The notes beneath the pieces are model-generated. The model searched no databases. It had not been told where the DNA came from and worked only from the letters and a program-made list of their open reading frames with translations. From Fusibacillus kribbianus (GTDB taxonomy: Bacteria; Bacillota; Clostridia; Lachnospirales; Lachnospiraceae), in NCBI RefSeq assembly GCF_030053595.1, contig NZ_JASGBQ010000022.1, forward strand, positions 1 through 50,811: DNA of 50,811 bases, in the 5' to 3' direction. The translations under genes and the position numbers were made by a program. The stretch's first letter is position 1; every line of letters starts with the position of its first letter. Below, piece by piece: positions 1 through 14,962 of the stretch.

Positions 1-135
1 TTTTTGTACTTGACATACTTAATTATACCACGGATGCGGGTCCTTTTGGGGCCCGTTTTCTGTTTTCGTACAAAAAAGGAGCTGCTGCTCCGTAGATTAT
101 TACTCTACTTTTGCAACAGCCCCGTAAACAAGTTG
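1..135. other. Host flank left of the transposon
   Basis: No gene fits here. On the plus strand a hairpin at 37-55 (7-bp stem with one G-U pair, TTTTG loop) is followed by TTTT and could end a gene lying left of the window. On the minus strand an extended -10 (TGGTATAAT, about 22-30) could start a leftward transcript leaving the window. Before the transposon arrived this stretch would have lain directly downstream of nrdD; that is inferred from the target duplication. Confidence 0.55.
72..91 (-). terminator. Probable original nrdD terminator, displaced
   Basis: Read on the minus strand, a GGAGC/GCTCC hairpin with a four-base loop (78-91) is followed by six T (77-72). If the transposon is removed and one TAACA copy kept, this hairpin falls roughly 70 bp after the nrdD stop codon, in the right direction to end nrdD mRNA. 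The short stem makes this moderate. Confidence 0.45.
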
Positions 136-140: not shown

Positions 141-404
141 TGTCCTTTTACAACTTTATTTGAAACAAACTCATGGGGGTTTTAGCTGAAATTTGGCATT
201 CCTCGACAACTTTAATTGAAATATATTATTTTACTCATATTTAACAATTAATTTTGTTACAACTTTATATGGAATATGAGTATTAACTCTGTCATGAAAA
301 CTTACTTTCTGATCTGTCAAGTATACCACAAAACTATCAACCATTCAACCTCTATCTCAGATGCGGTGCTAATCCAAAGTACCACATCCGAAATAATACT
401 CTAG
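141..404. repeat. Transposon left end with three TnsB-type boxes
   Basis: Three copies of a 19-bp motif, (T/C)(T/G)ACAACTTTA(T/A)(T/A)TG(A/G)AA(C/T), lie at 148-166, 204-222 and 257-275, all in the same orientation and 53-56 bp apart. The first is 7 bp inside the tip. Wide spacing of three boxes is how the Tn7 left end is built. The rest (276-404) holds no gene; a weak hairpin lies just after the RHH gene at about 361-394. Confidence 0.85.
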
Positions 405-590
405 TTATTTTCCTGTTCCCGTTTCTACATCATCATTCTGAACATACGAGGCGAAACAACGCTTCACTGCTATCTCTACAGCGGCAGTCTTTGTTGCTCC
501 CGTCTCTTCACAATAAGCATCAAGTATATCTGAGACTTCTTTATCCAATTTTATATTCAGGTGTGTATATTCCTTTTTCGGTCTCGGCAT
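405..590 (-). CDS. Small ribbon-helix-helix (CopG/Arc type) protein
   Basis: This 61-residue protein has a basic N-terminus (PRPKK) followed by YTHLNIKLDKEVSDILDAYC, a beta strand and first helix typical of ribbon-helix-helix DNA-binding proteins, then a TKTAAVEIAVKRC second helix. It begins two bases after the stop of the helicase gene, and its ribosome binding site (GGGGAGGTG) lies inside that gene's 3' end, so it is translated as the last gene of the restriction operon. A likely role is a repressor or dosage regulator of the operon. It could also be an orphan antitoxin-like protein, but no toxin partner is adjacent. The fold is reasonably sure, the role is inference. Confidence 0.7.
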   Translation of the reverse strand: MPRPKKEYTHLNIKLDKEVSDILDAYCEETGATKTAAVEIAVKRCFASYVQNDDVETGTGK

Positions 591-592
591 AG

Positions 593-3500
593 TTACACCT
601 CCCCAAGCACATCGCCAAACAGCTCAATCAGTTTAGCCTCCAAAGTGCCATCTTTGGCATACTGAAGGGAATCACACGGTCTGATGTTATGCTTTTCAAT
701 GTCCACCTCATCCTTGAAGCCCAAAATGTACGACAGGCTGATCCGATAAATAATCTCGGTCGGCGCGAGGCCGAATACCTGCTTTTCAAAGATATGGCGG
801 AGGCGTTCGTTTCCATCAGGGAACAGTGCCTTCATGCGTCCACTCTGATACAGCCGCTTCACGATTTCAGTGATGTACATACCTGACTTCATATACAGGT
901 CTGCGAATGTCTTATTCGGGTCATCAAAGCAGCCAGGATTTTCTTTTTCCAGCCGATCAACCATATCTTTTACAACCCACTTCGGGGTAAAGATCTGATT
1001 GGTTTTCTGCGGAGGGATGTAATCGAAAATATCCTCTGTGGTTTCTGGATTAAAGTAATCTGCCAAGGCTACTTTCTTCGCCAGAAATTCCCGAACAGAA
1101 TCATTGAATACGACCGGATCAAATAGATGGCCGTAATAATCTTCCATTTGACCGGTTTCCGGATTCAACACCTGACCGCCATCTCGAAGCAATCGGAACT
1201 GCTCTAAAGAGATACTGGTCACTTCCCGGAATACTACATCTGGAATGATTTGGTCAAAAGTTTCTAGTGTTGTACCATCATCCCCGTATGCCATTAGGAA
1301 GGAGGGGATTGTCCGGGAAAATCCGCGCAGATGGTCTTTGATTCCGTCCTCAATGGTCCGCTTCTTCTGCTCCCGTTTTTCCGTCTCTACCGTTTCCACA
1401 ACCGTCTGACCTGCCGTATCGATAAAACTGTTCACGGATTCCTTGATGGTCTGCTGAAGCGTTTCAACCGCCTGCTTTTTCTGCTTATCAATGTGCTGAT
1501 TCACCGCCTGCATTTCTTCTCTGGTCGTTGCTTCCGCAAGTTTTTGCTCTCGCTCTTTCTCCAGGATCTTCTGTTGGATCTGGAAATCACCAACAGCTTT
1601 GCCTACTACGGCATGGGTTTCTGTCTGCAGTTTTCGTTCCAGATTTTTCTTAGTTGATACAGAAAGGTCTTTTCCATATTCTTCCACAGCCTTCTGAATG
1701 ACATGATCGGTTACTTCGGTTTTAAAGGTCTTGGAAAGAGATTCGATCAGGACGTCCTCTGGCTTCTTATCCGATTTCTTTACGTCATAATTGGCAATCG
1801 CTTCCTCTACCCTGTTTCCAATAGAATCCGTATCGAAAATCTTTGCACCGAACAGCTCTGCCGATTTTCCGATCACATAACCAATATCCATCTCAACCTC
1901 ACCGGAATCATTTACGGACAATTCTTCCGCGGTATCCGGATTCACGCCAAGTGGTGTCGTCGGTTCTTTTACGGCTTCCATGCTAGTCAGAATATCAATG
2001 ACAGCTTGCGGAGCATTAAAGATATGGCCGATATTCTGGAAAAGAAAATCAGACATAAAGCCACGGCGAACAACTTCCTTGGATTTCAGTTTACGCGGGA
2101 TGGAAAGCACTTTTTCCGCATCCAGCTGGATCATTTCACCGTTTTCATCCTCACCGACAACCGGGAAGAAGTTTAACAGTTCCCGGACATGCTGCTTTCT
2201 GATATCGGAATCTCCCTTATCGCCGGATGTATCTTCAGACAAACCGTTTGCAATCTGTTCATAGATAATCAACGTTCTGGCCGGATCGAAATCAAAGATA
2301 TAAGCATTTTTCTTCCGGTACTGTTCCTTGCCATTAGAGAAAAGGCACGGGTTCTGGGCACGGAAAGCAGCCTGCATATACAGGGCCGGGCTTTTCAAAC
2401 TAGATAGCATCAACACTGCCGACCATTCCGGGAGCGTGACACCGGTTGTGAGCTGACCAACGGACAACGTAATGGTCTTATCGTGTTTTTTAATCGCGTT
2501 CGTAACCTTATCGTAGGCTTTCTTAATCTCTTTATCGTCGGCTTCCTGGTCTTCATCCAGTCTTCCGTCTCCTGCCGCAAGGACAATTTCATAATTTTTA
2601 AAAACCGGATGATCGTGCAGTTTTTTCGCCAGGGCCTTTACGGAATCAACACGGTTTAATAACCATAAGGTATGTTTTAACTCATCACGCAAATCCGGAG
2701 TGGAAAATGGAAACTTCTCCTGTTCCGTCATGGCATCCAGAAACTTGTCAACAGATTCATCGTAAACAAATTTTCCGGATGTATTGGTGGAAAAGAACTC
2801 ATTCAGATCAAAGGCATACTCAACCGTTTCACCGTCCAGTGCCTTTCCCTGAGACAGCTCGTCCTTAATGATTTCCGACATCTGATAGGTAAACATATTA
2901 AGCTGTGGGAGTTTTCCATAAGGGTTCTCCTGTCCAGGTTCTGCCTTAAATTCCCGCTTTGCTTTCTGCTCATCCGCATAGGTCCAGTTGTAAATTGCCT
3001 TCTGATCAAACTTATCATTTGCCAGAGCCTTAAACGGGGTTCCGGAAAGGTGCAGCGTGTATTTCCGATGGATCCGGTCAAAGGCTACATCGGTTTTGTA
3101 GGTATCGACACCCTCATGGGCCTCGTCAATCACAAGGATATCCCAGACCATCGGATGATCCTTGTCACCGCAGATCTCGTGCAGTTTATCATACTGACCG
3201 CCGAAATACAGGGAGCCTTTCAAATCCTGGAGAGACACAAATTCAATGCAACCGCAAAATTCGTCATCTTTCACATGAGCACCGATCTTTTTGTATTCAT
3301 CCCTAGAAATGACATAGGGTTTTCCCTGGATCCCGTCTACGGTACTGACAAAATGATATCCGGACTTCACACCAACAAATTTCTCATAATCCTCATACCA
3401 GCTGTTGGCAATGGCAGGCCGGTTCGTGACGATCAGAATATTGATAGCTCCTAAGCGCTTGCAAAGATCATAGGTAGCAAGCGTTTTTCCGAAACGCGGT

Positions 3501-3964
3501 TTTGCATTGAATAGGAATTGACCATGTTCATGCAGCTTGAAATAATTAATCGCACTGCTTACGGCTTCTTCCTGCTCTGGTCGGAGCGCATAGTCAATGA
3601 CTTCCGTTCCCTGGAGCTGACCACGATCCGCTTTAAATGAGTAAAACATCGTGCGGCTCAGGGCTGGAAGAATCTTAAACCATTCTGTTTTTGGCTTTCG
3701 CTCAATTCCACTTTTGGAAAGATAGGCGTGAAAATCAGAATCATGGAAAATATCTCCGGATCCATCGTCATAGATGGCTGTTCCCTTCCATTCCAACTTA
3801 TACTCCACATCTGCAGTGTGCATCTGCTGACCCAGTCGTTTATCAACACTCTGCTCTGTATATCCGATCTTCGTCCAGCCATCATGTCGCCGGATCTCCG
3901 GAGTGGTATAGGCATAAATCATCGGCACAACCTTCTCGGCAGTATTTAAGTTGATTTTTGCCAT
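593..3964 (-). CDS. GIY-YIG nuclease/helicase restriction subunit with C-terminal methylase half
   Basis: This 1123-residue protein probably cuts DNA in a restriction system. Residues about 15-98 resemble a GIY-YIG domain of the T5orf172/MUG113 type (YAYT...WTKIGYTEQSVDKRL). A superfamily 2 helicase follows: Walker A KPRFGKT (155-161), DEAH (280-283), a SGTP motif near 310 and a Q..FRAQN motif VI. Residues about 815-900 form a charged coiled coil. The last 135 residues carry an N6-adenine methylase start: motif X (FTPKWVV, near 992) and a motif I-like FADLYMKSG (near 1022). The protein then stops, before any NPPY motif. The NPPY half is the separate gene just upstream (3966-5000). It is third in a four-gene operon with 1-4 base gaps. 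The start codon is 1 base after the previous stop. The Eco57I-like family assignment is from sequence likeness; specificity is unknown. Confidence 0.8.
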   Translation of the reverse strand: MAKINLNTAEKVVPMIYAYTTPEIRRHDGWTKIGYTEQSVDKRLGQQMHTADVEYKLEWKGTAIYDDGSGDIFHDSDFHAYLSKSGIERKPKTEWFKILPALSRTMFYSFKADRGQLQGTEVIDYALRPEQEEAVSSAINYFKLHEHGQFLFNAKPRFGKTLATYDLCKRLGAINILIVTNRPAIANSWYEDYEKFVGVKSGYHFVSTVDGIQGKPYVISRDEYKKIGAHVKDDEFCGCIEFVSLQDLKGSLYFGGQYDKLHEICGDKDHPMVWDILVIDEAHEGVDTYKTDVAFDRIHRKYTLHLSGTPFKALANDKFDQKAIYNWTYADEQKAKREFKAEPGQENPYGKLPQLNMFTYQMSEIIKDELSQGKALDGETVEYAFDLNEFFSTNTSGKFVYDESVDKFLDAMTEQEKFPFSTPDLRDELKHTLWLLNRVDSVKALAKKLHDHPVFKNYEIVLAAGDGRLDEDQEADDKEIKKAYDKVTNAIKKHDKTITLSVGQLTTGVTLPEWSAVLMLSSLKSPALYMQAAFRAQNPCLFSNGKEQYRKKNAYIFDFDPARTLIIYEQIANGLSEDTSGDKGDSDIRKQHVRELLNFFPVVGEDENGEMIQLDAEKVLSIPRKLKSKEVVRRGFMSDFLFQNIGHIFNAPQAVIDILTSMEAVKEPTTPLGVNPDTAEELSVNDSGEVEMDIGYVIGKSAELFGAKIFDTDSIGNRVEEAIANYDVKKSDKKPEDVLIESLSKTFKTEVTDHVIQKAVEEYGKDLSVSTKKNLERKLQTETHAVVGKAVGDFQIQQKILEKEREQKLAEATTREEMQAVNQHIDKQKKQAVETLQQTIKESVNSFIDTAGQTVVETVETEKREQKKRTIEDGIKDHLRGFSRTIPSFLMAYGDDGTTLETFDQIIPDVVFREVTSISLEQFRLLRDGGQVLNPETGQMEDYYGHLFDPVVFNDSVREFLAKKVALADYFNPETTEDIFDYIPPQKTNQIFTPKWVVKDMVDRLEKENPGCFDDPNKTFADLYMKSGMYITEIVKRLYQSGRMKALFPDGNERLRHIFEKQVFGLAPTEIIYRISLSYILGFKDEVDIEKHNIRPCDSLQYAKDGTLEAKLIELFGDVLGEV

Positions 3965-3965
3965 T

Positions 3966-5000
3966 TTATACCATCTCCTTTACATTGGATTCAATAAATA
4001 GAATTTCATCATCTGTTAGCTTATATTTTTTATAAAGTTGTTGATCAATTTCGGAAATAGACTTAGACCAATCTACATCTGAATGATTCGTGAAATTTTG
4101 TTTAGGAATATAACGCCAAACAGCTGGTAAATTATCTTGTGTTACTTTCAGAACATATAATAATGCGCGACAAAATTTTGTTTTGAGGTATTTTAAAAGA
4201 TTGATTGCATCTGTTTCTTCATCAAACGTTCCAACAGAAATATAGGTTTGAGTAAAAGCAACGTTAGGCTGAACCACTATCATTTCGGAAAATGCCTCTC
4301 CAAATTTACCTGAACCAGTAGCTTTAGGTACAAGTACTTTATATTTATAAAGGCTTTTATGATTGGATTTTAAATATCGTCGGTGACAGTACTTTTTTCC
4401 TCTTTTGCCGTTGACCAAGCCATAAACTGAATAGTCATCGTCTTCGGTCGGCACATCTGTGAAAATAGGATTGATATTTAAAACATTGGTTTTTAACTGA
4501 CTATGTCTCCCTCCATCTCCAATGTATTTAGTATAATCAGGATGATCAGAGTATATATTGTTTAAATCATAAGTATTAGAACTGTCAGCTATATCTGTCA
4601 AACTGTCCTCAACACATTCAGCTCCTGCCTTTTTAAGTACCGTTTTTAATTCTTTATATGGTACAAAAACCCGAATAGGTTCATAATGTTCATTTGAACT
4701 TCGATAAGTAACAGCTACACCACCCTTTATATCCGTGTTATGAAAGATCTTTGATGCATCTCGTTCATAAAGCAGAACTTTAAAATGTGAATCATCCAGC
4801 ATTTTTTTATTCCATGCTTTTGGTGTTTGTCCAGCGTTAAAAAGAAAACGGGCAGGTGTAATTAGTTCAACTACATTAGCAACTTGATTCGCCTCATCCA
4901 TGAAGCGATCATATACTGGTGGCATTCTTGTTGAGTCAGAATCAGTCACTTCCTGGTATGGCGGATTACCTATGACAAAATCAAACAACTTTTTTCCCAT
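3966..5000 (-). CDS. Eco57I-type N6-adenine methylase half carrying NPPY
   Basis: This 344-residue protein opens almost directly with the catalytic motif IV: DFVIGNPPYQE, with N12-P-P-Y15. That motif flips and methylates adenine at N6. The rest resembles the region after NPPY in Eco57I-type enzymes (ITPARFLFNAG, TDIKGGVAVTY) and the variable C-terminal half is probably the target recognition part. It lacks the S-adenosylmethionine-binding motifs X and I, which should precede NPPY; copies of them sit in the proteins encoded on both sides (residues about 82-148 of the upstream M subunit, and the C-terminus of the downstream helicase). It therefore probably works only as part of a complex. It is four bases downstream of the M gene. 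Base composition is the most A/T-rich of the cargo. Family confidence is good, the complementation model is inference. Confidence 0.8.
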   Translation of the reverse strand: MGKKLFDFVIGNPPYQEVTDSDSTRMPPVYDRFMDEANQVANVVELITPARFLFNAGQTPKAWNKKMLDDSHFKVLLYERDASKIFHNTDIKGGVAVTYRSSNEHYEPIRVFVPYKELKTVLKKAGAECVEDSLTDIADSSNTYDLNNIYSDHPDYTKYIGDGGRHSQLKTNVLNINPIFTDVPTEDDDYSVYGLVNGKRGKKYCHRRYLKSNHKSLYKYKVLVPKATGSGKFGEAFSEMIVVQPNVAFTQTYISVGTFDEETDAINLLKYLKTKFCRALLYVLKVTQDNLPAVWRYIPKQNFTNHSDVDWSKSISEIDQQLYKKYKLTDDEILFIESNVKEMV

Positions 5001-5004
5001 ATTC

Positions 5005-5928
5005 TCACATCCCCTTTTTTAAATCTTTATATATAATCATTTCTTTCGAACGCCAATTTTTAATCTTACACGGAAGTGCCACGTCTTCCGGTTCCGGCTC
5101 TTCAAACATATCAAAAAGCGACATCTGATGGTACGCCTCGTGCGGTTTTCCAAGCGGAACCGTATCTTTCAGGCCATCCATCTGCCAAATATTCCATGTC
5201 ACTATGTTCGCTATTCGCTTTAGTAATTTCATATCTGGATCTTCACCGAATCGCTCATCATAGTAGTCGCAGTAGGTTAAAACGCAGTTGATCCTGGCAA
5301 TGAGCAGGTTATCGCCCTGATATTCATAACCGTAACAACTCTGCACGGCCCGTTCTGCCCATTTGATCCAGTTTTCTTTGGTATCCGTGTTCTCATTCAC
5401 CACACGGAGTTTACGGTCGAGCATTCCGATGCGCTTGATGGGAGGCACGATCAGTTCTCCTGTCGTTGTATCGTAACGTGAGACGAGATAAGGAGCTTCA
5501 CCGCAGGTGATCTCAAGCCGTTTTGAATCAATATAGCTTTTCCATGACTTATCTCCGAAAGCAATATTATCCTCCGTAACCGTCCAAGTATTGTCGTCGT
5601 TCTCGTGATTGAAGACGTCCTTCCGACCAAACCATTGCTCATCAGCGTAGTTGTTCATTTTGTTACAAAGCCACACTGGAGTCATGACCTCTGCTTTCTT
5701 ACGAGTACGTTCCTGCTGTTCCTCCAGCGTCTTGCTGATGCGAGGCTGCAATACGAATGCGCCTCCGAGCAGTTCCGGCGATATGATGTTCTTGTCGCCG
5801 TATCCTGGACCGAGATTCGTGTACGCATCTGTAGCCCATATGATGTTTTTCTTTGTCGTCTTGTCCTGCAAGAGCAGTGGTAGCAGCTCTTTGATTGGAT
5901 ATGAGTTGATATCTATTAAACCAGCCAC
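5005..5928 (-). CDS. Restriction-modification M subunit (methylase-like, no NPPY)
   Basis: This 307-residue protein resembles the proteins annotated as restriction endonuclease subunit M that accompany Eco57I-like helicase systems. It has a motif X-like VMTPVWLCNKM (81-91) and a motif I-like LEITCGEAPYL (138-148) for S-adenosylmethionine binding, followed by a conserved LDRKLRVVNENT stretch and YGYEYQGDNLLIARIN. I find no NPPY or DPPY motif, so it is unlikely to methylate alone; it may supply cofactor binding or DNA recognition. Translation starts at GTG with AAGGAGG seven bases upstream. It is the first gene of the cargo operon behind the promoter at 5998-6026. Confidence 0.78.
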   Translation of the reverse strand: MAGLIDINSYPIKELLPLLLQDKTTKKNIIWATDAYTNLGPGYGDKNIISPELLGGAFVLQPRISKTLEEQQERTRKKAEVMTPVWLCNKMNNYADEQWFGRKDVFNHENDDNTWTVTEDNIAFGDKSWKSYIDSKRLEITCGEAPYLVSRYDTTTGELIVPPIKRIGMLDRKLRVVNENTDTKENWIKWAERAVQSCYGYEYQGDNLLIARINCVLTYCDYYDERFGEDPDMKLLKRIANIVTWNIWQMDGLKDTVPLGKPHEAYHQMSLFDMFEEPEPEDVALPCKIKNWRSKEMIIYKDLKKGM

Positions 5929-5997
5929 AGAACGGCCTCCTTATCGTCGTATTGTTTAAGCGACACTTTTCGTTATCTAGCATCACTATTCAATAAT

Positions 5998-6026
5998 AAT
6001 ATACGTTTTTTGTGATGTTTCGTCAA
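5998..6026 (-). promoter_or_regulatory. Promoter of the restriction-modification operon
   Basis: On the minus strand TTGACG (6026-6021) is separated by 17 bases from TATATT (6003-5998). It lies between tniQ and the M subunit gene, about 70 bases before the GTG start, so the cargo can be expressed independently of the tns genes. Confidence 0.75.
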
Positions 6027-6071
6027 CACCTTTCTTCTCTAAACCACGTTTTATTATGACAGATTCCAACA

Positions 6072-7991
6072 TCAACTTACAAAGAATAATGGATTTGCTT
6101 TTAGAAGTTTTTCCTTGCGCTCATCGCTCATTTTCCCTGTTTTATACCATTTTCTCTGGGTCTCGACCCACGCACCAAGATGCTCGCCTTCGTAATCTGT
6201 TCTCCTTGATATATATGTCGTACTTTTTTCTTCGATATAGCGAAGATACTGCTCATACCGTCTGTTCCATTCCGTTTCTTTTGGGTCGAAATCGAATCCG
6301 ATATCAGATAATTTCTTTACCTTTTCTGGTGTCATTGTCCGTTTATTGCAGTTGTAGTTATCCCGCTGGCGTTGGCACCATAGTCCAAGGTTTTCTCCTT
6401 TATATAAGTCTCTTTTTGGAATAGTTATGTTGCCATGCTCTGCCTTATAGTCCAATAACAGCGCATACATTCTTTCCCACTGATCCGCAAAAGAACTGTT
6501 ACAGAAAGGACATCTGGCCCCCATATAAAAATACTTCGGGCTATATTCCGTAGTTCGTCCGCAAACATGATGAAGAATTGATATTTTAGTGTTCTGGTTC
6601 ACAAAATCTCCAACCATTTCATACTCCCCATTAGATTCCCTGGCGATCCTGTCTCGAAGGTACTCCGTAGTCATGTTGTGAGGGAAACAGATACGACAAT
6701 GAGGCGAACGAACAAACTTCCTGTATCTTGCTTCGAAGATATGACCACAATCCCGTGCTCGTATTTTGCATAGTGATTCAGCCGAAGTAAACTCACACAA
6801 ATCATAATTTCCGAGCTCAGATATCGTCTTCTTGGCCTCTGCTTCGGTGATCACTGATTCACACATACAACGAACGCCCTCATATATGAAGCCTCTTGGC
6901 GTTACAACTGTATGATGACCGCATTTATGATGAATCAGATCTATTTTCCGGTTCATAGATTTAAATGCAGAGCTCGCACTATATCCATTTGTTTCAAACA
7001 CTCTGTTAGCAAAGTCGCTTTCCGACAGAGATTCATTGCACAAACCACAACCAAAGACATTTAGCTCAGCAAATGGGGTCGATATATAATTCCGACCACA
7101 TGTATCACAATGATATATCTCAAGCAACGGATTGCTATCCGCCCTTTGAATGAGTGATATCATCTCATTTGCGTCAGGATACAAGAACATAAAGAGCGGC
7201 ATTAATTCCTCAGGAGAGACATACTCAGCTTTAATCATTTTCACTTTCAGGAAATGTGGAATATCCATTTTGAGCAGATCTGCATACTGCCAGCTGTGCA
7301 GATCACTATTAAAAGAGGCATATGCATCCGAAACAGAATATCCTCTATCTTTCAAAGTGCTGTACAGAATACCTTTTAGTGCTTTAATATCCGTTGTAAC
7401 ACCTGCATCAAAGATCTCTCTTGCATAATCTGCATACACAGCATCTGATGTCGAGATCAATTCATATGTAGAATAAGCGGTCCAATCGTAATCGCAGGCA
7501 CGACCCTTGGTTCCATCAAAACGCATCAGAGCACAGTGGTGTTTTGGGCACACCCTTATGCCTGAAAGATGATGTATCCGATGCAGATATGCCTCTCCAT
7601 ACATTGCAATATCTTCTTTAGCACATTCCGGACACACATGTAATTGCTGAAATATACCATTCGAGGTAGTGTTTACGCTGCTTTTCTCCATGAAGACATT
7701 GTTAACGTATTTCGTCTGTTGACCTTCCGTCATAAACATTGCTTCAAACGGAAACGTACTGACAGATAAGAACAATTCGACCATATCAGGCTTTTTCAGA
7801 AGACTGTCGTATAACCCGACAAATTCCCGCCTGACATCCGGCCGGAACGAATTGATGGTGGCATTTTTTACACCAAGATATTCAATTAAAAAGTCTTTCA
7901 CTAACAAGCCATTTGCTGCTGCAAGACGATGTATCCATGAATATAACAGTTCGTCTGGATACGGTTTTTTGCCTACCGGAATGAATCCCAA
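6072..7991 (-). CDS. tniQ: TniQ/TnsD-type target selector with HA-repeat tail
   Basis: This 639-residue protein should choose the insertion site by binding target DNA and recruiting TnsC. The N-terminus (PYPDELLYSWIHRLAAANG, 10-28) is the TniQ signature. A zinc site follows (C120, C123, C148, H151/H152). The C-terminal half has four more CxxC-type clusters, in HCDTCGRNY, HHKCGHHT, RDCGHIFEARY and HHVCGRTTEYS contexts, each with a partner CxxC further on, that is, a chain of zinc ribbons. Residues about 505-632 form two helicase-associated (HA) repeats (GENLGLWCQRQR and GEHLGAWVETQRKW), a DNA-binding module. The length and tail resemble TnsD rather than short TniQ proteins. It is four bases after tnsC. 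Because the element lies beside nrdD, I infer that this protein reads the nrdD 3' end. Confidence 0.88.
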   Translation of the reverse strand: MGFIPVGKKPYPDELLYSWIHRLAAANGLLVKDFLIEYLGVKNATINSFRPDVRREFVGLYDSLLKKPDMVELFLSVSTFPFEAMFMTEGQQTKYVNNVFMEKSSVNTTSNGIFQQLHVCPECAKEDIAMYGEAYLHRIHHLSGIRVCPKHHCALMRFDGTKGRACDYDWTAYSTYELISTSDAVYADYAREIFDAGVTTDIKALKGILYSTLKDRGYSVSDAYASFNSDLHSWQYADLLKMDIPHFLKVKMIKAEYVSPEELMPLFMFLYPDANEMISLIQRADSNPLLEIYHCDTCGRNYISTPFAELNVFGCGLCNESLSESDFANRVFETNGYSASSAFKSMNRKIDLIHHKCGHHTVVTPRGFIYEGVRCMCESVITEAEAKKTISELGNYDLCEFTSAESLCKIRARDCGHIFEARYRKFVRSPHCRICFPHNMTTEYLRDRIARESNGEYEMVGDFVNQNTKISILHHVCGRTTEYSPKYFYMGARCPFCNSSFADQWERMYALLLDYKAEHGNITIPKRDLYKGENLGLWCQRQRDNYNCNKRTMTPEKVKKLSDIGFDFDPKETEWNRRYEQYLRYIEEKSTTYISRRTDYEGEHLGAWVETQRKWYKTGKMSDERKEKLLKANPLFFVS

Positions 7992-7995
7992 TGTG

Positions 7996-9606
7996 TTAAT
8001 TCTCCTTTATGCCCAGAAAATCCCGCATATGCTGCATGTCGGGCGTTTCAAGTTTATTCTTCATATTGCTCCGTTTTGGAGCCCTCTGAAGCTGTTCAAC
8101 GACAAGGCGACTGATTTCCTTTTCAGTCTTTCCCTGCGCAGATTTTCTTCTAATTACTTTGTTGTATGCTGTCTCAATCTGCGCATCCGAATACTCGTCA
8201 TACAAAGCTCTTATAATCGACACGACATTGGATAACTGAATCGTTTCCATGGAAGTATCCATGTTGATGAGCTTCTGCATCTCAGTTTCTTGTTTTGCAG
8301 CATCAAGAAGAGCATCTATTTTCGTTTCTGCCTCTCCCCTGATATTGTGGAGTTCGACCGTATTCTCAGTAGATTCGAGATTAGCCAAAACGTCCTGAAT
8401 GCCAGGATAGAACTTATTTGCAACAGTCCTCACATATTTATCATCAACCGTCGGTTTTTTCTTTTTGCTCAGATAATCGTAATGCATACACGAATATACA
8501 GCGACAAGCTGGTCTACAATACCTTTTGTGACGTCGTACAAGGCATCTATAAGCTCGTTTGTGGCCTCAACTGGAGTATCGAACCACTGATACCTGAAAA
8601 GCGATTTAACAAGGTGTTTGAAGTAGTCCTTATTCTCACAGTAAAGATTACCGTTGATCATTACCCCGATTCTTCTCGATGTCCTGAGTTCTCGAAACAT
8701 CTTGTCTCTGGCGTCCTCGGTTCCAACAACTGCTATGGCAACCTTTGTTCTATTCGACAGGGTCAGAAGAGAATTGAATGTGTTTTCTCTGGTGTGTTCA
8801 AAATCTATGAACTGAATCTCATCAAGGATGATGATACCGATGCCAAACTTCTCTACATACTCCTTAACCAGTTCCGCCTTCTTTCCAAGACCCTTTGCTC
8901 TTGAGATTGCTTTTGCGTAAACGGGCGTGATATTGTTCAGGGCCTTATCTATAGCATCGCCAATGCCTTCATACAAGGCAGAAAAGTTGCTGTTTGGAAT
9001 ACAGTTGACCACAAGGTATGTAATTTGCGGGAAATAGCCCCCGTTTTCATCGGTATGTATGATTACCTGCGGATAATAATTCACAAGATTGCTGATAGCT
9101 GAGCTCTTCCCGCAGCCTGAATATCCGATTAGGGAAAATCCGGCATTTGTGGCCTCGCTGGAATCTCCGCTTAGAATAAGATTCGTCGTCTTGCTGGTAT
9201 TATCTACCGTCAATTCTATCCGTGAGTTATCAGATTTCATCTGCTTTCTTGCTCTGTACGAAGTGAGCAGAGCATTATAAAGTGAAAATTCCAAATCCCT
9301 GTTGAATGGCAACGGGAACCTCAGTTCTCTCAATGTGCCAACTGCAAGCATCTTGTCGAGCTTAGACATATCCTTAACCTTGTCATAGCTATATCCGGGA
9401 AGTTCCCTTGTATAAGCTCTTCTGATACCAAAATCGTCTCTCGGATTTGGAAGAGCCTCAATATACGGATTTCCCTTATCTATATCCATTCTGGCAGGAA
9501 TATAAATGGCGTCGACAATATTTGTTTCATTCAGGTCATAATCGTCATATTGCGAAGCGCCTTCTTCGCACTGTGTATATTCATAATCCACGGACGGTTC
9601 CTCCAC
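7996..9606 (-). CDS. tnsC: TnsC AAA+ ATPase, transposition regulator
   Basis: This 536-residue ATPase is the switch between target selector and transposase. Walker A is GYSGCGKSS (161-169); Walker B is IIILDE (258-263), followed by a likely sensor region (KVAIAVVGTEDARDKM) and a basic C-terminal tail. Residues 1-150 are an acidic then mixed N-terminal arm. Translation starts at GTG; TAG of tnsB and GTG share the G, so the two genes are translationally coupled. The length matches TnsC of Tn7 (about 555). Nothing is broken. Confidence 0.93.
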   Translation of the reverse strand: MEEPSVDYEYTQCEEGASQYDDYDLNETNIVDAIYIPARMDIDKGNPYIEALPNPRDDFGIRRAYTRELPGYSYDKVKDMSKLDKMLAVGTLRELRFPLPFNRDLEFSLYNALLTSYRARKQMKSDNSRIELTVDNTSKTTNLILSGDSSEATNAGFSLIGYSGCGKSSAISNLVNYYPQVIIHTDENGGYFPQITYLVVNCIPNSNFSALYEGIGDAIDKALNNITPVYAKAISRAKGLGKKAELVKEYVEKFGIGIIILDEIQFIDFEHTRENTFNSLLTLSNRTKVAIAVVGTEDARDKMFRELRTSRRIGVMINGNLYCENKDYFKHLVKSLFRYQWFDTPVEATNELIDALYDVTKGIVDQLVAVYSCMHYDYLSKKKKPTVDDKYVRTVANKFYPGIQDVLANLESTENTVELHNIRGEAETKIDALLDAAKQETEMQKLINMDTSMETIQLSNVVSIIRALYDEYSDAQIETAYNKVIRRKSAQGKTEKEISRLVVEQLQRAPKRSNMKNKLETPDMQHMRDFLGIKEN

Positions 9607-11717
9607 TAATTATTCTCCCAGAAATCCTCAAGGGCTTCCTCAAAGTTATCATAATCTTTTCCGTTATTGACGGTCGCATTGTCAGGACGTGCAGCCGGTT
9701 CTTTTCGGGGAAGTTCTGAGCTCGTTTCGATTCTTGCCGTAATACTTCCTTCATGTGAAACGGTCTGCTTTTCCAGTTCCCTTGCAGGCCGCATATTCTT
9801 AGGATCGGAGATTGTTTCTTTCTTTGCCTCGTCCACAACCGCCGCGTTCACCGCATAATTAAATGCTGAAAGTTCCTGGTTATGAACCCGTCCTTCTGCA
9901 TCCATCTGCTTTTTTTTCTTGAGATAATCTTCATATTGCTTCATAGTCAAACCTTTGAAATCTGCATTGCCGGAAAGTCTTTCATTCAACGGAGCGTCAA
10001 TGAGCTTTCCGTTACACAAATAATAGATATGACCAACATCACGCATATCCATTCTGGCGTCAAACGACACTTTCTTCGTTCCCGCCTTAAACATTGCCTT
10101 TGAAAGTTCAGTGTCGTTATCTGACAAATAGTAAAGGTTTTTGTAAGATATTCCCCGCCTATCAACCTTTGCTTTCACAGGAATCATCAGATCAAAAAGA
10201 TACTGCTCGCGAACAGGAATGGGCCTGGGATTGCCGTACTTTTTTACACCATAATCCCATAAAAGGCACGGAATAGGTTTGATTCCCTGTTCAATCATCT
10301 CTTTGGTGACAGGGTAGGAGGAATCATATTCCTGATTATGTGTCAGGACAAAGTTGATCACCATTTTCGTGTACTGCTCGATATTCAGAGTAGCTTCCTT
10401 GTGATGGTTCGAATCGTATCGTTTTTCAATCAAGCCATAGTTTTCAAGATGTGGGTTCTGCTTTGAATGCATCTGATGGAATGACTGTTCAACGATACCT
10501 TTTAAAGATCCGGAAGCGCCTGGTACTATCTGCTTTTCAATTCCAAGTTCGTTGCAGATACGATCAAACTCTTTGCTCTTAAACTCCGATCCACGGTCTA
10601 CTCTCAATCTGCGGGGAATGATATTCGACCGCCACATAGCAGGGTTGTCAAAGCCCATCCCATATTTTTTACAGTATTCAAGCTTATCATCGGCAAGATT
10701 GAGGAAAAGATTTGTGATGCCTAATACCGAGTTGTTATCAAAAGCAACTGATACAGCCAGAATCATTCTGGTGAATACATCTATCATAAAGTAAACGATA
10801 GGCCTTCCAATTGTTTTATTCGGATCAAATGTAGACACGAGAGATACATCTGCTTCACAAGCGTCGATCTCAACCATATCGCCCGGACCAAATACTTCAA
10901 ACGTAGAGTCGCTGGTGATAAGCCTCTTGTTGTTGCGTTGTTCCTGCGCGGAAGTTTTAATAGCGTCCTTTTCTTGTTCTGTAAGCTGCTTGTTAGCATA
11001 GTAGTAAAACTGACGCATTGTCGGTCTCTCAGCCTCAGATAATAAAACAAGCGTAGGAATACCATTGCGTAGCTCTGTCTTAGTAAAATGGAGAGCGTTC
11101 ATTCTGTCGTAACAAGCCCTTAAATTTTTTTGTCTTCCAGAACGGTATTCTTTAAGCGCTTCATTAAAATATTCCTTGATCTCATCAGTAATCAAAACGC
11201 CACTTCGACCAAAATACTCTGAGGGTTTCCCTGTCTTTACAGTGTAACTATAGGTATTTCCCTTTGAACGAAAATGCCTGTTATCGATAAGCGAAGAGTC
11301 CTTCATTCCACTTTGAATATATTTTGTAAACATTCTCCAAAACGAAGATGTCGGCATGGAATATTTCTCCAGTATCGCCTTTAATTCCGGTTTCGGGCTT
11401 TTACCACATAGATCGGTGAGACGCTTGCCGTATATGTTCATAGTCTCAGAAACAACAGCCTGTTTCATGATATATTTTTCTTTGACACTCCCATTCAAAA
11501 GTTCAGCATCAAACACGATAATGTCTTCTGATTCTTCAATCAGCCCGCCATCTACAACCAAGGTGATTATTGCTTTCAGACTATGCGTCATCAATATAAA
11601 CTTATTGGTATCCATCTGGCATAGCACAACATTCTCATATGATAAATCTACAATCCTGTATCGCGTTTGTGTTTGAGGATCTTTAAGGATGCCCCCTACT
11701 GCAATGAGGTTATTCAT
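9606..11717 (-). CDS. tnsB: TnsB DDE transposase
   Basis: This 703-residue integrase-fold transposase binds the 19-bp end boxes and joins the 3' ends of the element to target DNA. The catalytic triad is visible: D285 in MVEIDACEAD, D374 in RVDRGSEF and E410 in GSLKGIVEQSF. Residues about 85-230 form the helix-rich DNA-binding part; a Mu-like beta barrel domain follows the core, near 510-580; the acidic C-terminal tail (about 640-703) is where TnsC contact is expected in this family. Its start overlaps the end of tnsA by 8 bases. The length matches Tn7 TnsB (702). Confidence 0.95.
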   Translation of the reverse strand: MNNLIAVGGILKDPQTQTRYRIVDLSYENVVLCQMDTNKFILMTHSLKAIITLVVDGGLIEESEDIIVFDAELLNGSVKEKYIMKQAVVSETMNIYGKRLTDLCGKSPKPELKAILEKYSMPTSSFWRMFTKYIQSGMKDSSLIDNRHFRSKGNTYSYTVKTGKPSEYFGRSGVLITDEIKEYFNEALKEYRSGRQKNLRACYDRMNALHFTKTELRNGIPTLVLLSEAERPTMRQFYYYANKQLTEQEKDAIKTSAQEQRNNKRLITSDSTFEVFGPGDMVEIDACEADVSLVSTFDPNKTIGRPIVYFMIDVFTRMILAVSVAFDNNSVLGITNLFLNLADDKLEYCKKYGMGFDNPAMWRSNIIPRRLRVDRGSEFKSKEFDRICNELGIEKQIVPGASGSLKGIVEQSFHQMHSKQNPHLENYGLIEKRYDSNHHKEATLNIEQYTKMVINFVLTHNQEYDSSYPVTKEMIEQGIKPIPCLLWDYGVKKYGNPRPIPVREQYLFDLMIPVKAKVDRRGISYKNLYYLSDNDTELSKAMFKAGTKKVSFDARMDMRDVGHIYYLCNGKLIDAPLNERLSGNADFKGLTMKQYEDYLKKKKQMDAEGRVHNQELSAFNYAVNAAVVDEAKKETISDPKNMRPARELEKQTVSHEGSITARIETSSELPRKEPAARPDNATVNNGKDYDNFEEALEDFWENN

Positions 11718-12351
11718 TTTTCACCTCCAATAATTTCATTAGATCAGAATTTTCAATAGGTTTGAAACCCATATCGAACTCTATTTCTTTAATAGCAATT
11801 TTGTGTTTTATCGCACTAACCACATCGAATACAAGTGCCGCGTCATAAAACTCAGTAACAAGTCTAATATTTGATGCCAGTATTGTATTCATCTCAGACT
11901 TGAATACCAATTGACATTCAGTTCCTTGATTGAGCCAATACTGTTTTTCAATGCACAAGAGCTGCATTTGTCTTTTACTTAATTGTTTGTCTGCTTTAAC
12001 AGAATATGCGACCTCTGTTCCATCTTTTTTAGTTGCCAGCATATCCGTAGTCATAATTTCTCTTGGTGGAGGAAATCCCATCTCATTTGCGATATTAACT
12101 GTTTCCGTATAATCAAGAGGATATTGTTCCCTTACGTCAACGTTTGTGTCATCCCAGCGAAGGATATAATACCAATACATTTCTCCCTGAGATAAGCAGT
12201 GAACAGCTCGACCAGTTTTCCAATCCTTGATGACTGATGTGGTTCCCTGGCTATTAAACTCACTGGTCGTAATATAAGGCTTATAGTCTGCACCCGTTCC
12301 TTGTCCCATCTTTCGAATGGCTTTTGTTTTTGCTGATGGGCGATTACTCAT
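11710..12351 (-). CDS. tnsA: TnsA endonuclease, 5'-strand cleavage subunit
   Basis: This 213-residue protein should cut the 5' ends of the element, allowing cut-and-paste. The restriction-enzyme-like core shows E57 (LSQGEMYWYY), D103 (MTTDML) and K119 (AYSVKA); the usual Gln of the QxK motif is Ser117. VREQYPL (73-79) is a family hallmark. I chose the ATG at 12351 rather than one ten codons upstream because AGAGGTGATT sits at ideal distance before it. A TnsB-type box lies about 50 bases upstream (12399-12417), so the operon is probably repressed by TnsB. It is the first gene of tnsA-B-C-tniQ. Confidence 0.92.
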   Translation of the reverse strand: MSNRPSAKTKAIRKMGQGTGADYKPYITTSEFNSQGTTSVIKDWKTGRAVHCLSQGEMYWYYILRWDDTNVDVREQYPLDYTETVNIANEMGFPPPREIMTTDMLATKKDGTEVAYSVKADKQLSKRQMQLLCIEKQYWLNQGTECQLVFKSEMNTILASNIRLVTEFYDAALVFDVVSAIKHKIAIKEIEFDMGFKPIENSDLMKLLEVKNE

Positions 12352-12660
12352 ACAATCACCTCTTTTTATTTGTTCGTGCATAAATAATATGCATTATTAT
12401 TTCAAATATAGTTGTGATTATCGAAAATTTATTTCATATAGAGATGTAAATTCCTCTATTTTTTATTATAGCATTTTCTTATTTCATTTCAAGCGTGCGA
12501 GCAAATAAATAGAGCCGAAACATCTCTGTCTCGACTCTACCCTCTTTAAATGCTGATTATTTAGTTCTATTTTAACTAAAGTTGTAAATCAGCAAATTTA
12601 CTGTTTTCCATCTGTTTCATCTATAGTTGTTTCTGTTTCAGTTAGAGTTGTAAATTTACA
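12352..12660. repeat. Transposon right end with four TnsB-type boxes
   Basis: No gene fits. The 19-bp box, inverted relative to the left end, occurs at 12635-12653 (7 bp from the tip), 12614-12632, 12569-12587 and 12399-12417. The outer two are only 21 bp apart, so this end is denser than the left, as in Tn7. The innermost box lies in the tnsA promoter region. An imperfect 8-bp inverted repeat lies at 12511-12518/12531-12538; no clear T-run makes it a terminator. Confidence 0.85.
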
Positions 12661-12665
12661 TAACA
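12661..12665. repeat. Right target-site duplication TAACA
   Basis: Second copy of the 5-bp duplication, directly after the terminal ACA of the element. Ten bases separate it from the nrdD stop codon (12678-12676). Confidence 0.9.
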
Positions 12666-12675
12666 TTTTCAGTTT

Positions 12676-14865
12676 TTACAGATGCAGTACCCGATCCTTG
12701 ATCTCCTGGGTACGTCCCTGATTCCAGAACTGGGTTCCGATATAGCCGCAGGTACGGCGGGCCACAAAGAGCTTATCCTGATTGCGGTTTCCGCAGTTGG
12801 GGCACTCCCATATGAGCTTGCCGTCCTCCTGCTCCTTGATCTGGATCTCTCCGTCATAGCCGCAGCACTCGCAGTAATCGCTCTTGGTGTTGAGCTCCGC
12901 GTACATGATGTTGTCGTAGATGAACTTCATCACCGACAGTACGGCGGGAATATTATGCTGCATGTTGGGCACCTCCACATAGCTGATGGCGCCGCCGGGA
13001 GAAAGCTTCTGGAAGTCAGACTCGAACTTCAGCTTACTGAAGGCATCGATCTCCTCGGATACATGCACGTGATAGCTGTTGGTGATATAATTCTTGTCGG
13101 TCACACCCTTGATGATGCCGAACCGCTTCTGAAGGCACTTGGCAAATTTGTAGGTTGTGGACTCCATCGGTGTTCCGTAAACGGAATAGCTGATGTTTTC
13201 CGCAGCCTTCCACTCGGCACACTTGTCATTTAACCGCTGCATCACTGCCAGGGCAAAGGGCTTCGCCTCCGGATCGGTGTGGGACTTGCCCAGCATCCTC
13301 ATGCACATCTCGTAGAGACCTGCATAGCCCAGGGAAATGGTGGAATAGCCGTTGTATAACAGCTTGTCGATGGTCTCGCCCTTTTTGAGTCTTGCCAGTG
13401 CACCGTACTGCCACAGGATCGGTGCCACGTCGGAAACCGTTCCCAGAAGGCGCTCATGACGGCACCGCAGTGCCCGGTGGCAAAGCTCCAGGCGCTCGTC
13501 CAGGATCTCCCAGAACTTATCCATATCCCCCTGAGAGGAGCAGGCCACATCCACCAGATTGATGGTGACAACGCCCTGGTTGAACCGGCCGTAGAACTTA
13601 TAGCTTCCGTCGGGATTCTTCTGGCTCTCCTCCACAGTCAGGAAGGAACGGCAGCCCATGCAGGTGTAGACATTGCCCTTCTTAAGCTCCCGCATCTTCT
13701 TGGCGGAAATGTAATCGGGAACCATCCTCTTGGCGGTACACTGGGCAGCCAGCTCGGTCAGATACCAGTATTTGGAATCCTCGGTGATATTATCCTCATC
13801 CAGCACGTAGATCAGCTTGGGGAAGGCGGGAGTGATCCAGACGCCCTTCTCGTTCTTCACGCCCTGCATTCTCTGGCGGAGGACTTCCTCGGTGATCATG
13901 GCAAGGTCATCCCTGGTCCGGCCCTCAGGCACCTCATCCAGGTACATGAACACGGTTACAAAGGGAGCCTGTCCGTTGCAGGTCATCAGCGTGATCAGCT
14001 GATACTGAATGGTCTGGATGCCGCTCTTGATCTCTTCCTTCAGACGGCGCTCCGTCACTTTGTTAATGATCTCTTCATCCATGGACTCGCCGCAGGCCTG
14101 ACGCTCTTCGATCACTGCCTTTTTTAACTTCTGGCGGCTGATGTCCACAAAGGGAGCCAGATGAGCCAGAGAGAAGGACTGGCCGCCGTACTGGTTGCTG
14201 GCTACCTGAGCCACGATCTGGGTGGTCACGTTGCAGGCTGTAAAGAAGCTGTGGGGCTTCTCGATCATAGTCTCGCTGATGACCGTGCCGTTCTGAAGCA
14301 TATCCTCCAGATTGATCAGATCACAGTTGTGCTCTCTCTGTGCGTAATAATCGGTATCGTGGAAATGGATGATGCCCTCCTCATGGGCACGGACCACTTC
14401 CTCGGGAAGCAGGACTCGTCTGGACAGATCCTTGCTGACCTCGCCTGCCATATAGTCTCTCTGGGTGGAGTTGATCACCGGGTTCTTGTTGGAATTTTCC
14501 TGGGTCACTTCCTCGTTGATGTTGTCCAGGAGGGAGAGAATGCCGTTGTCCGTGGTATTGGACTTACGGGTCAGCTCTCTCTTGTAGCGGTAGCGCACAT
14601 ACTTCTGAGCCACCTCATAGCCTCTCATCTCCATGATCCCGGTTTCTACCATATCCTGAATATCTTCCACATTTACCGCATGGGTCGATGCCTGAATCTT
14701 GTCTGCCACATTGTCGGCAATGGCAAGAATCTGGTAATCATTCATCTTGTGGATATTGTCAACCTCATGATTTGCCTTCTTGATCGCATTGACGATCTTG
14801 GACAGATCAAAAGTTACCTCTTCCCCATTTCTCTTGATTACTCTGTTTTTTACCTCAATACTCAT
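12676..14865 (-). CDS. nrdD: Anaerobic ribonucleoside-triphosphate reductase, class III
   Basis: This 729-residue glycyl-radical enzyme makes dNTPs from NTPs without oxygen. Residues 1-95 form an ATP-cone (VIKRNGEEVTFDLSKIVNAI). The C-terminal zinc site has C665/C668 (CECC) and C688/C691 (CPNC), and the radical loop RTCGY places the radical glycine at about G707. I chose ATG 14865, with GAGGAG just upstream, over a start 19 codons earlier. Two NrdR-like boxes cover the promoter. The activase gene nrdG is not adjacent upstream; it may lie beyond the left edge of the window, separated by the transposon. The coding region is intact: the transposon begins 15 bp after the stop codon. Confidence 0.97.
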   Translation of the reverse strand: MSIEVKNRVIKRNGEEVTFDLSKIVNAIKKANHEVDNIHKMNDYQILAIADNVADKIQASTHAVNVEDIQDMVETGIMEMRGYEVAQKYVRYRYKRELTRKSNTTDNGILSLLDNINEEVTQENSNKNPVINSTQRDYMAGEVSKDLSRRVLLPEEVVRAHEEGIIHFHDTDYYAQREHNCDLINLEDMLQNGTVISETMIEKPHSFFTACNVTTQIVAQVASNQYGGQSFSLAHLAPFVDISRQKLKKAVIEERQACGESMDEEIINKVTERRLKEEIKSGIQTIQYQLITLMTCNGQAPFVTVFMYLDEVPEGRTRDDLAMITEEVLRQRMQGVKNEKGVWITPAFPKLIYVLDEDNITEDSKYWYLTELAAQCTAKRMVPDYISAKKMRELKKGNVYTCMGCRSFLTVEESQKNPDGSYKFYGRFNQGVVTINLVDVACSSQGDMDKFWEILDERLELCHRALRCRHERLLGTVSDVAPILWQYGALARLKKGETIDKLLYNGYSTISLGYAGLYEMCMRMLGKSHTDPEAKPFALAVMQRLNDKCAEWKAAENISYSVYGTPMESTTYKFAKCLQKRFGIIKGVTDKNYITNSYHVHVSEEIDAFSKLKFESDFQKLSPGGAISYVEVPNMQHNIPAVLSVMKFIYDNIMYAELNTKSDYCECCGYDGEIQIKEQEDGKLIWECPNCGNRNQDKLFVARRTCGYIGTQFWNQGRTQEIKDRVLHL

Positions 14866-14916
14866 AATTCTCCTCACCCGCATCCTACCAGATGTTGATA
14901 TTTCTTTCGTTGTGAA

Positions 14917-14962
14917 ACACAATATATAGTTGCAGATTTAATAATACAACAAAATATAGGAA
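14917..14962 (-). promoter_or_regulatory. Tandem NrdR-like boxes before nrdD
   Basis: ACACAATATATAGTTG (14917-14932) matches the NrdR consensus ACACWATATWTWGTGT at 14 of 16 positions. A weaker copy (14947-14962) matches at 10 of 16, with a 30-bp offset, close to the three-turn spacing of NrdR box pairs. The weaker box overlaps the -10 to -35 region of the promoter. NrdR represses ribonucleotide reductase genes when dATP is high. Confidence 0.75.

Follow-up and report, generated by a model that had tools for sequence, protein, structure and literature searches.

We describe here a complete Tn7-like transposon that lies directly behind the anaerobic ribonucleoside-triphosphate reductase gene nrdD in Fusibacillus kribbianus, at positions 141-12660 of a 50,811-nt stretch (hereafter the window) that forms the start of contig C15 of this genome. 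We judge it likely, with a probability of roughly 0.75, that this TnsABC-TniQ transposon homes to the 3′ end of nrdD, and that the pair of HA domains closing its TniQ protein is an address part shared by different element types. We regard the pair as portable because a related pair belongs to an integrase-type element that is also located at nrdD; in a tree of HA domains, the pairs of three genera, each carried at an nrdD 3′ end, fall into a single clade. From these arrangements we infer that the HA domains bind DNA, read nrdD and have moved between element types. The earlier sequence-only reading of this stretch took nrdD merely as a landmark and was silent on the HA domains and their implications.

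The transposon is real and its limits, already proposed to the base in that reading, are right. The element begins with TGT at position 141 and ends with ACA at 12658-12660, its right edge lying 15 bp past the nrdD stop codon, and is flanked by a perfect 5-bp target-site duplication, TAACA (left copy 136-140, right copy 12661-12665). The left end (141-274, plus strand) carries three TnsB-type boxes at 148, 204 and 257 behind its TGT terminus, and the right end (12400-12660, minus strand) carries five boxes at 12400, 12432, 12570, 12615 and 12636 before its ACA terminus; the end boxes had been recognised correctly but miscounted, with eight found instead of seven. Each of the eight matches at least 12 of the 15 specified positions of a pattern derived from the boxes themselves, no further match at this threshold occurs in the 50.8-kb window (28 in all at 11 of 15), and 300 first-order shuffles of both ends yielded means of 0.05 and 0.07 matches with maxima of 2 and 1. 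As the pattern was built from those boxes, this comparison speaks to their clustering at the ends and not to their discovery. Counted inward from each terminus, box spacings are 21, 45, 138 and 32 on the right and 56 and 53 on the left, and the two ends agree at 20 of their first 26 positions.

Between these ends, four core genes are all open and all encoded on the minus strand, in the same direction as nrdD itself (12676-14922, minus strand, open; Pfam NRDD, 655.1 bits): tnsA for the end-cleaving nuclease (11710-12381; Pfam Tn7_TnsA-like_N; PDB 1t0f, Tn7 TnsA, E = 4.3e-19), tnsB for the DDE transposase (9606-11717; Pfam rve; PDB 7pik, Tn7 TnsB, E = 1.8e-38), tnsC for the AAA+ regulator (7996-9606; Pfam AAA_22 and TniB) and tniQ for the target selector (6072-7991; 639 aa from a TTG start; Pfam TniQ 70.8 bits and HA 108.6 bits). 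The claim that the catalytic residues are intact also held: in the alignments with Tn7 TnsA and TnsB, the active-site stretches retain their residues at the positions that we take to be catalytic. Tn7 has TGT/ACA ends and generates a 5-bp duplication. The end of its conserved target gene acts as its recognition site, according to the abstract of PMC2918618. Like Tn7, which combines TnsABC with TnsD and inserts at attTn7 by glmS, the window element has TnsA, TnsB, TnsC and a TniQ-family selector, and is inserted just past a conserved gene. Unlike Tn7, its target is nrdD, 15-16 bp past the stop codon, its selector ends in an HA pair and is weakly similar to TnsD, and Pfam recognised no TnsE among the element proteins submitted to it.

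The TniQ protein consists of a TniQ domain (aa 8-155), a cysteine-rich middle and two C-terminal HA domains (PF03457), and its best PDB match is TnsD of Tn7 (8glu), at a weak E = 0.0003. The HA pair (aa 499-639; 6075-6497, minus strand) is the proposed nrdD-reading module. An AlphaFold model of the pair, computed from a two-sequence alignment, contains two sets of three helices with a mean pLDDT of 90.5, and the second HA unit weakly matches a solved helicase domain (2kta, E = 0.018). We also observed TniQ proteins in two loci of TnsB relatives (L061 6914-9358 and L062 14468-16870, with TnsB 40 and 31% identical to that of the window). Their long C-termini gave no HA match, so the C-terminal part of TniQ varies among related elements. 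The pattern made from the boxes of the window did not pick up end boxes in the nearest TnsB relatives.

Across 98 genomes including that of F. kribbianus, the best HA match outside its own genome was a 395-aa protein of genome G044, 52% identical over the pair. Run on 397 genomes of the family, an HA profile (A1) made from the pairs of the window and G044 scored 280 bits on the source genome, 275 on G044 and 158 on a further genome, G218, with the next best at 72.6. The pairs of the window, G044 and G218 group as one clade (support 100/98) in a tree built from 71 HA domains. Both clade members outside the window are carried by elements at the nrdD 3′ end and represent two further genera of the family. 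The three cases cover three genera and two unrelated recombination machineries.

Searches of further samples, which overlap in their genomes, yielded no new member of this clade: none in 392 genomes of the order (E 1e-18), none in 325 relatives of G218 (E 1e-22), none in eight congeners of G044 (E 1e-10) and none in three scans of viral contigs. Among 341 genomes of the class (E 1e-20), two weaker matches in G880 (79 and 77 bits) were placed outside the clade by the tree. A scan of genome contigs, in which automatic patterns performed poorly, recovered G044 together with two HA proteins at 35% identity, and with TniQ as tblastn query, plasmids and phages gave matches in 185 and 174 records, none reaching 60% identity and, among the 20 matches listed for each, none reaching 35%. 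The branch nearest to the clade holds proteins of G046, G050 and G066, which we considered as further TniQ-HA selectors and rejected: on visual inspection, two look helicase-like and one is a cysteine-rich protein, and no tns gene was seen in the 3.4-3.7 kb fetched around them. When nrdD was searched by tblastn against all fetched loci, it matched only at the window, G044, G218 and the loci fetched for nrdD, a weak control of position given that most HA and TnsB loci have only 1.5 kb of flank; the informative wider ones are L061, L062, L063, L066 and L069 (19-20 kb), L070 (12.8 kb) and L065 (5.7 kb). A short version of the G044 locus (L010) missed nrdD because of its short flank.

In G044, the gene order is nrdD, an insertion with the HA gene, and the native nrdG. 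Comparison with congeners delimits the insertion, as 13,841 bp (about 13.8 kb) separate two congener-matching stretches, and nrdD is joined to nrdG in congeners G731, G729 and G733; G398, G730 and G734 differ, and G732 gave no nrdD match. ATTTAT stands at both junctions as a 6-bp core, the element ends TCTAGAGGAACC and GGTTCCTCTATA make an inverted pair, and the element has recombined into the last codons of nrdD, whose product gains eight residues. The element opens with a second nrdG (L064 5888-6421), 48% identical to the displaced native copy; this extra gene possibly keeps the nrdD-nrdG pair working. It is followed by three large frames, a small protein and then the 395-aa HA protein. Frames 1 and 3 match a PHROG integrase (E = 1.4e-7 and 8.2e-6) and frame 2 has no match; frame 3 additionally scores 21.4 bits with a Pfam integrase, below the cut-off of 27.1, and matched no PDB chain.

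The G218 case is a deleted Tn7-like element of 2,316 bp (L101 7572-9887) whose right end lies 16 bp after the nrdD stop codon, in the order nrdD, right end, a TniQ tail with the HA pair, a PBECR4-domain gene and left end. Its HA frame lies about 400 bp behind nrdD, and its TniQ tail is 58% identical to that of the window (106 of 184 columns). The two NrdD proteins are 56% identical. It carries five boxes on the right and three on the left in a layout nearly identical to that of the window (spacings inward from the termini of 21, 45, 115 and 33 on the right and 55 and 53 on the left), answering the earlier question of whether the end boxes are conserved in a related element. Its six congeners do not show an empty site, and the 400 bp past its left end match no other fetched locus. 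We also observed that the PBECR4-domain gene is preceded by imperfect repeats (L101 about 8500-8700 and 7809-8456), an arrangement that to us resembles what we take to be a type III toxin-antitoxin layout.

The insertion distance behind nrdD is thus known from two cases only, 15 bp in the window and 16 bp in G218, the latter without a matching duplication. Such an element is absent from the site in eight of the ten congeners of the source genome, because nrdG directly trails nrdD there (12-179 bp on, with no element between); of the other two, one has nrdG 1,024 bp on and in one the contig ends inside nrdD. In the mechanism that we propose, TniQ would work like TnsD of Tn7: its N-terminal TniQ domain would contact TnsC, and its C-terminal HA pair would bind the conserved end of nrdD, for which we suggest the last stretch of the gene (12676-12720, minus strand; its extent is a guess), from which the element stands at a fixed distance in two genera. 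TnsC would then license TnsA and TnsB, which would insert the element 15-16 bp past the stop codon, duplicate 5 bp and keep nrdD intact. A related HA pair would serve the integrase-type element, which recombines into the final codons of nrdD.

The nrdD end shows other alterations as well. In G730 (L113, G730:C39), NrdD has LHTSNSSFSMCG in place of a terminal LHL, and 195 bp remain before the contig ends; another insertion at the last codon may be the cause, and the HA search of the G044 congeners found no match in this genome. In G724 (L118, G724:C201), 28 bp around the nrdD stop codon are exactly repeated just behind the gene (119-146 and 159-186), like the scar of an element that brings its own copy of the site; the HA search of the G218 relatives gave no match in this genome.

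The left flank of the transposon offers little to compare. Window positions 1-123 are the end of an IS1182-family insertion sequence (IS) and not native flank: contigs C8, C45, C16 and C35 begin with the same sequence (100% identity over 117-120 bp), and C35 runs on into an IS1182 transposase gene (380.8 bits, cut-off 270). Only the 12 bp at 124-135, between the IS end and the duplication, are possibly old. The sequence-only reading expected an empty site to join the nrdD end to the sequence now at 135-1. This junction is not open to comparison because the left flank turns into the IS1182 end at the contig start, and it was found in no fetched locus other than that of the window itself. We also observed that the left flank with the duplication (130-140), which reads TGTTACAACTT on the coding strand, has the same 11 bases as a stretch inside the third left-end box (255-265), a match that may be fortuitous or left over from an earlier element end. 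The nrdG of the source genome is located on contig C17 behind broken two-component genes, with no link to this flank; the genes upstream of it (L067, G000:C17, 1-2295) are two-component-system genes with internal stops, and the start of C17 by eye resembles another IS end.

Several points weigh against a homing function of the HA pair. Binding of nrdD by the HA domains and mobility of the element are predictions from sequence, only two relatives are at hand, and no shared recognition motif was derived from the nrdD ends. The flanks of the G218 element, TATAT and AATAC, differ and so display no matching 5-bp duplication. The name integrase-type for the G044 element comes from weak matches. The element encodes its HA protein apart from the recombinase-like ones, and the role of the HA protein is suggested by its position. 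Finally, the altered NrdD C-terminus of G730, in a genome with no HA match, means that other things hit the nrdD end without such an HA pair.

The main rival, which we hold to be improbable yet well worth weighing, builds on this last point and sees the nrdD 3′ end as a general safe harbour, at which the HA module was exchanged by recombination without choosing the site. The insertion marks of G730 and G724, neither with a close HA match, would fit, as would GInt islands, which according to parts of PMC5385486 lie at the ends of a small set of conserved genes, including a class of ribonucleoside-diphosphate reductase genes in P. aeruginosa; with GInts at such genes in print, islands at a reductase gene are no novelty on their own. 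Yet the HA pairs outside the window come from other genera and are only 52 and 54% identical to that of the window, and therefore a recent local swap is not seen. The pair in TniQ also sits where TnsD proteins are thought to hold target recognition (passages of PMC10293859), and both Tn7-like insertions stand at near-equal distances of 15 and 16 bp. A very unlikely account is that an ordinary Tn7-like element came to rest behind nrdD by chance with HA domains as generic nucleic-acid-binding extras; such domains are indeed common in the family (25 of the 397 genomes at E 1e-8 or better, own included), but both outside clade members are at nrdD, in two kinds of element, and other HA domains fall on other branches. 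We give hardly any credence to an assembly error having made the left boundary: the contig does start inside a repeated IS end, but the left terminus lies 17 bp beyond it, shares its box layout with the right end and is bordered by a perfect 5-bp duplication, and the same end layout recurs in G218.

The remaining genes of the transposon, all on the minus strand, are cargo that by sequence similarity appears restriction-modification-like, with two methyltransferase-type proteins and a ResIII protein. They encode a small ribbon-helix-helix-like protein (405-590; weak Pfam matches, all below cut-off), the restriction-like ResIII protein (593-3964; Pfam ResIII 45.3 bits, part match to PADLOC REase_MTase_IIG), an Eco57I-type methyltransferase (3966-5000; Pfam PF07669 52.8 bits; PADLOC MTase_II and REase_MTase_IIG) and a second methyltransferase-type protein (5005-5928; no Pfam match, PADLOC MTase_II 337.3 bits). 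No Cas protein was found among the eight element proteins given to Pfam and no direct repeat of at least 22 bp within 200 bp occurs in 141-12660, so that neither cas genes nor a CRISPR array mark this as a CRISPR-associated Tn7-like element; of five element proteins given to PADLOC, TniQ alone was named as a CRISPR-associated type, and Rfam listed only tRNAs in the window. Nor is the element of the Tn6022/TnsF type, as it has a single 639-aa TniQ with an HA pair and no recombinase match among its other proteins.

The closest precedent, by analogy, is the sharing of TnsF between Tn6022 and Tsy. In passages of Faure et al. 2023 (PMC10293859), TnsF is common to Tn6022 and the tyrosine-recombinase transposon Tsy at comM, the Tn6022 type combines a short TniQ with a separate TnsF that has a recombinase-like core, and the C-terminal region of TnsD is suggested to recognise the site. 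As in that case, a targeting part would be common to a Tn7-like transposon and a recombinase-type element at one gene. Unlike the recombinase-derived TnsF at comM, the part here is an HA pair at nrdD, fused to TniQ in the window and contained in a 395-aa protein in G044. GInts are described, again in parts of PMC5385486, as having a ginABCD operon of three integrases plus GinD and imperfect flanking repeats of 10-17 nt. The G044 element may be akin to GInts and Tn554-type elements: its gene order fits, with three large consecutive frames, of which two have weak integrase matches, and a small fourth, and it has a short junction repeat (the 6-bp core) and is inserted at a gene 3′ end. It differs in adding an HA protein and its own nrdG. 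In the library searched, we found no paper linking Tn7-like elements to nrdD, a site that may be listed elsewhere, e.g., in supplements: the main text of PMC10293859 mentions neither nrdD nor HA domains (its supplements lay outside the search), and passages of a survey of Tn7-like cargo (PMC8649781) mention no nrd genes. With somewhat less assurance than for homing itself, we favour the fuller view that the HA pair is a portable nrdD module serving both a DDE Tn7-like transposon, where it is fused to TniQ, and an integrase-type island, that this is a second TnsF-like sharing with a different fold, that nrdD is a new homing site, and that the nrdG of the island offsets the break between nrdD and nrdG.

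Much of the interest and usefulness of Tn7-like elements comes from how they choose their targets. Should two HA domains, about 140 aa in all, suffice to name a site, and should they work both fused to TniQ and placed beside integrase-type recombinases, a single small module would allow tests of how transposons gain new addresses. For anaerobic bacteria, nrdD would add a new safe site addressed by protein guidance. Together, these results suggest that one targeting part can be common to different kinds of jumping element.

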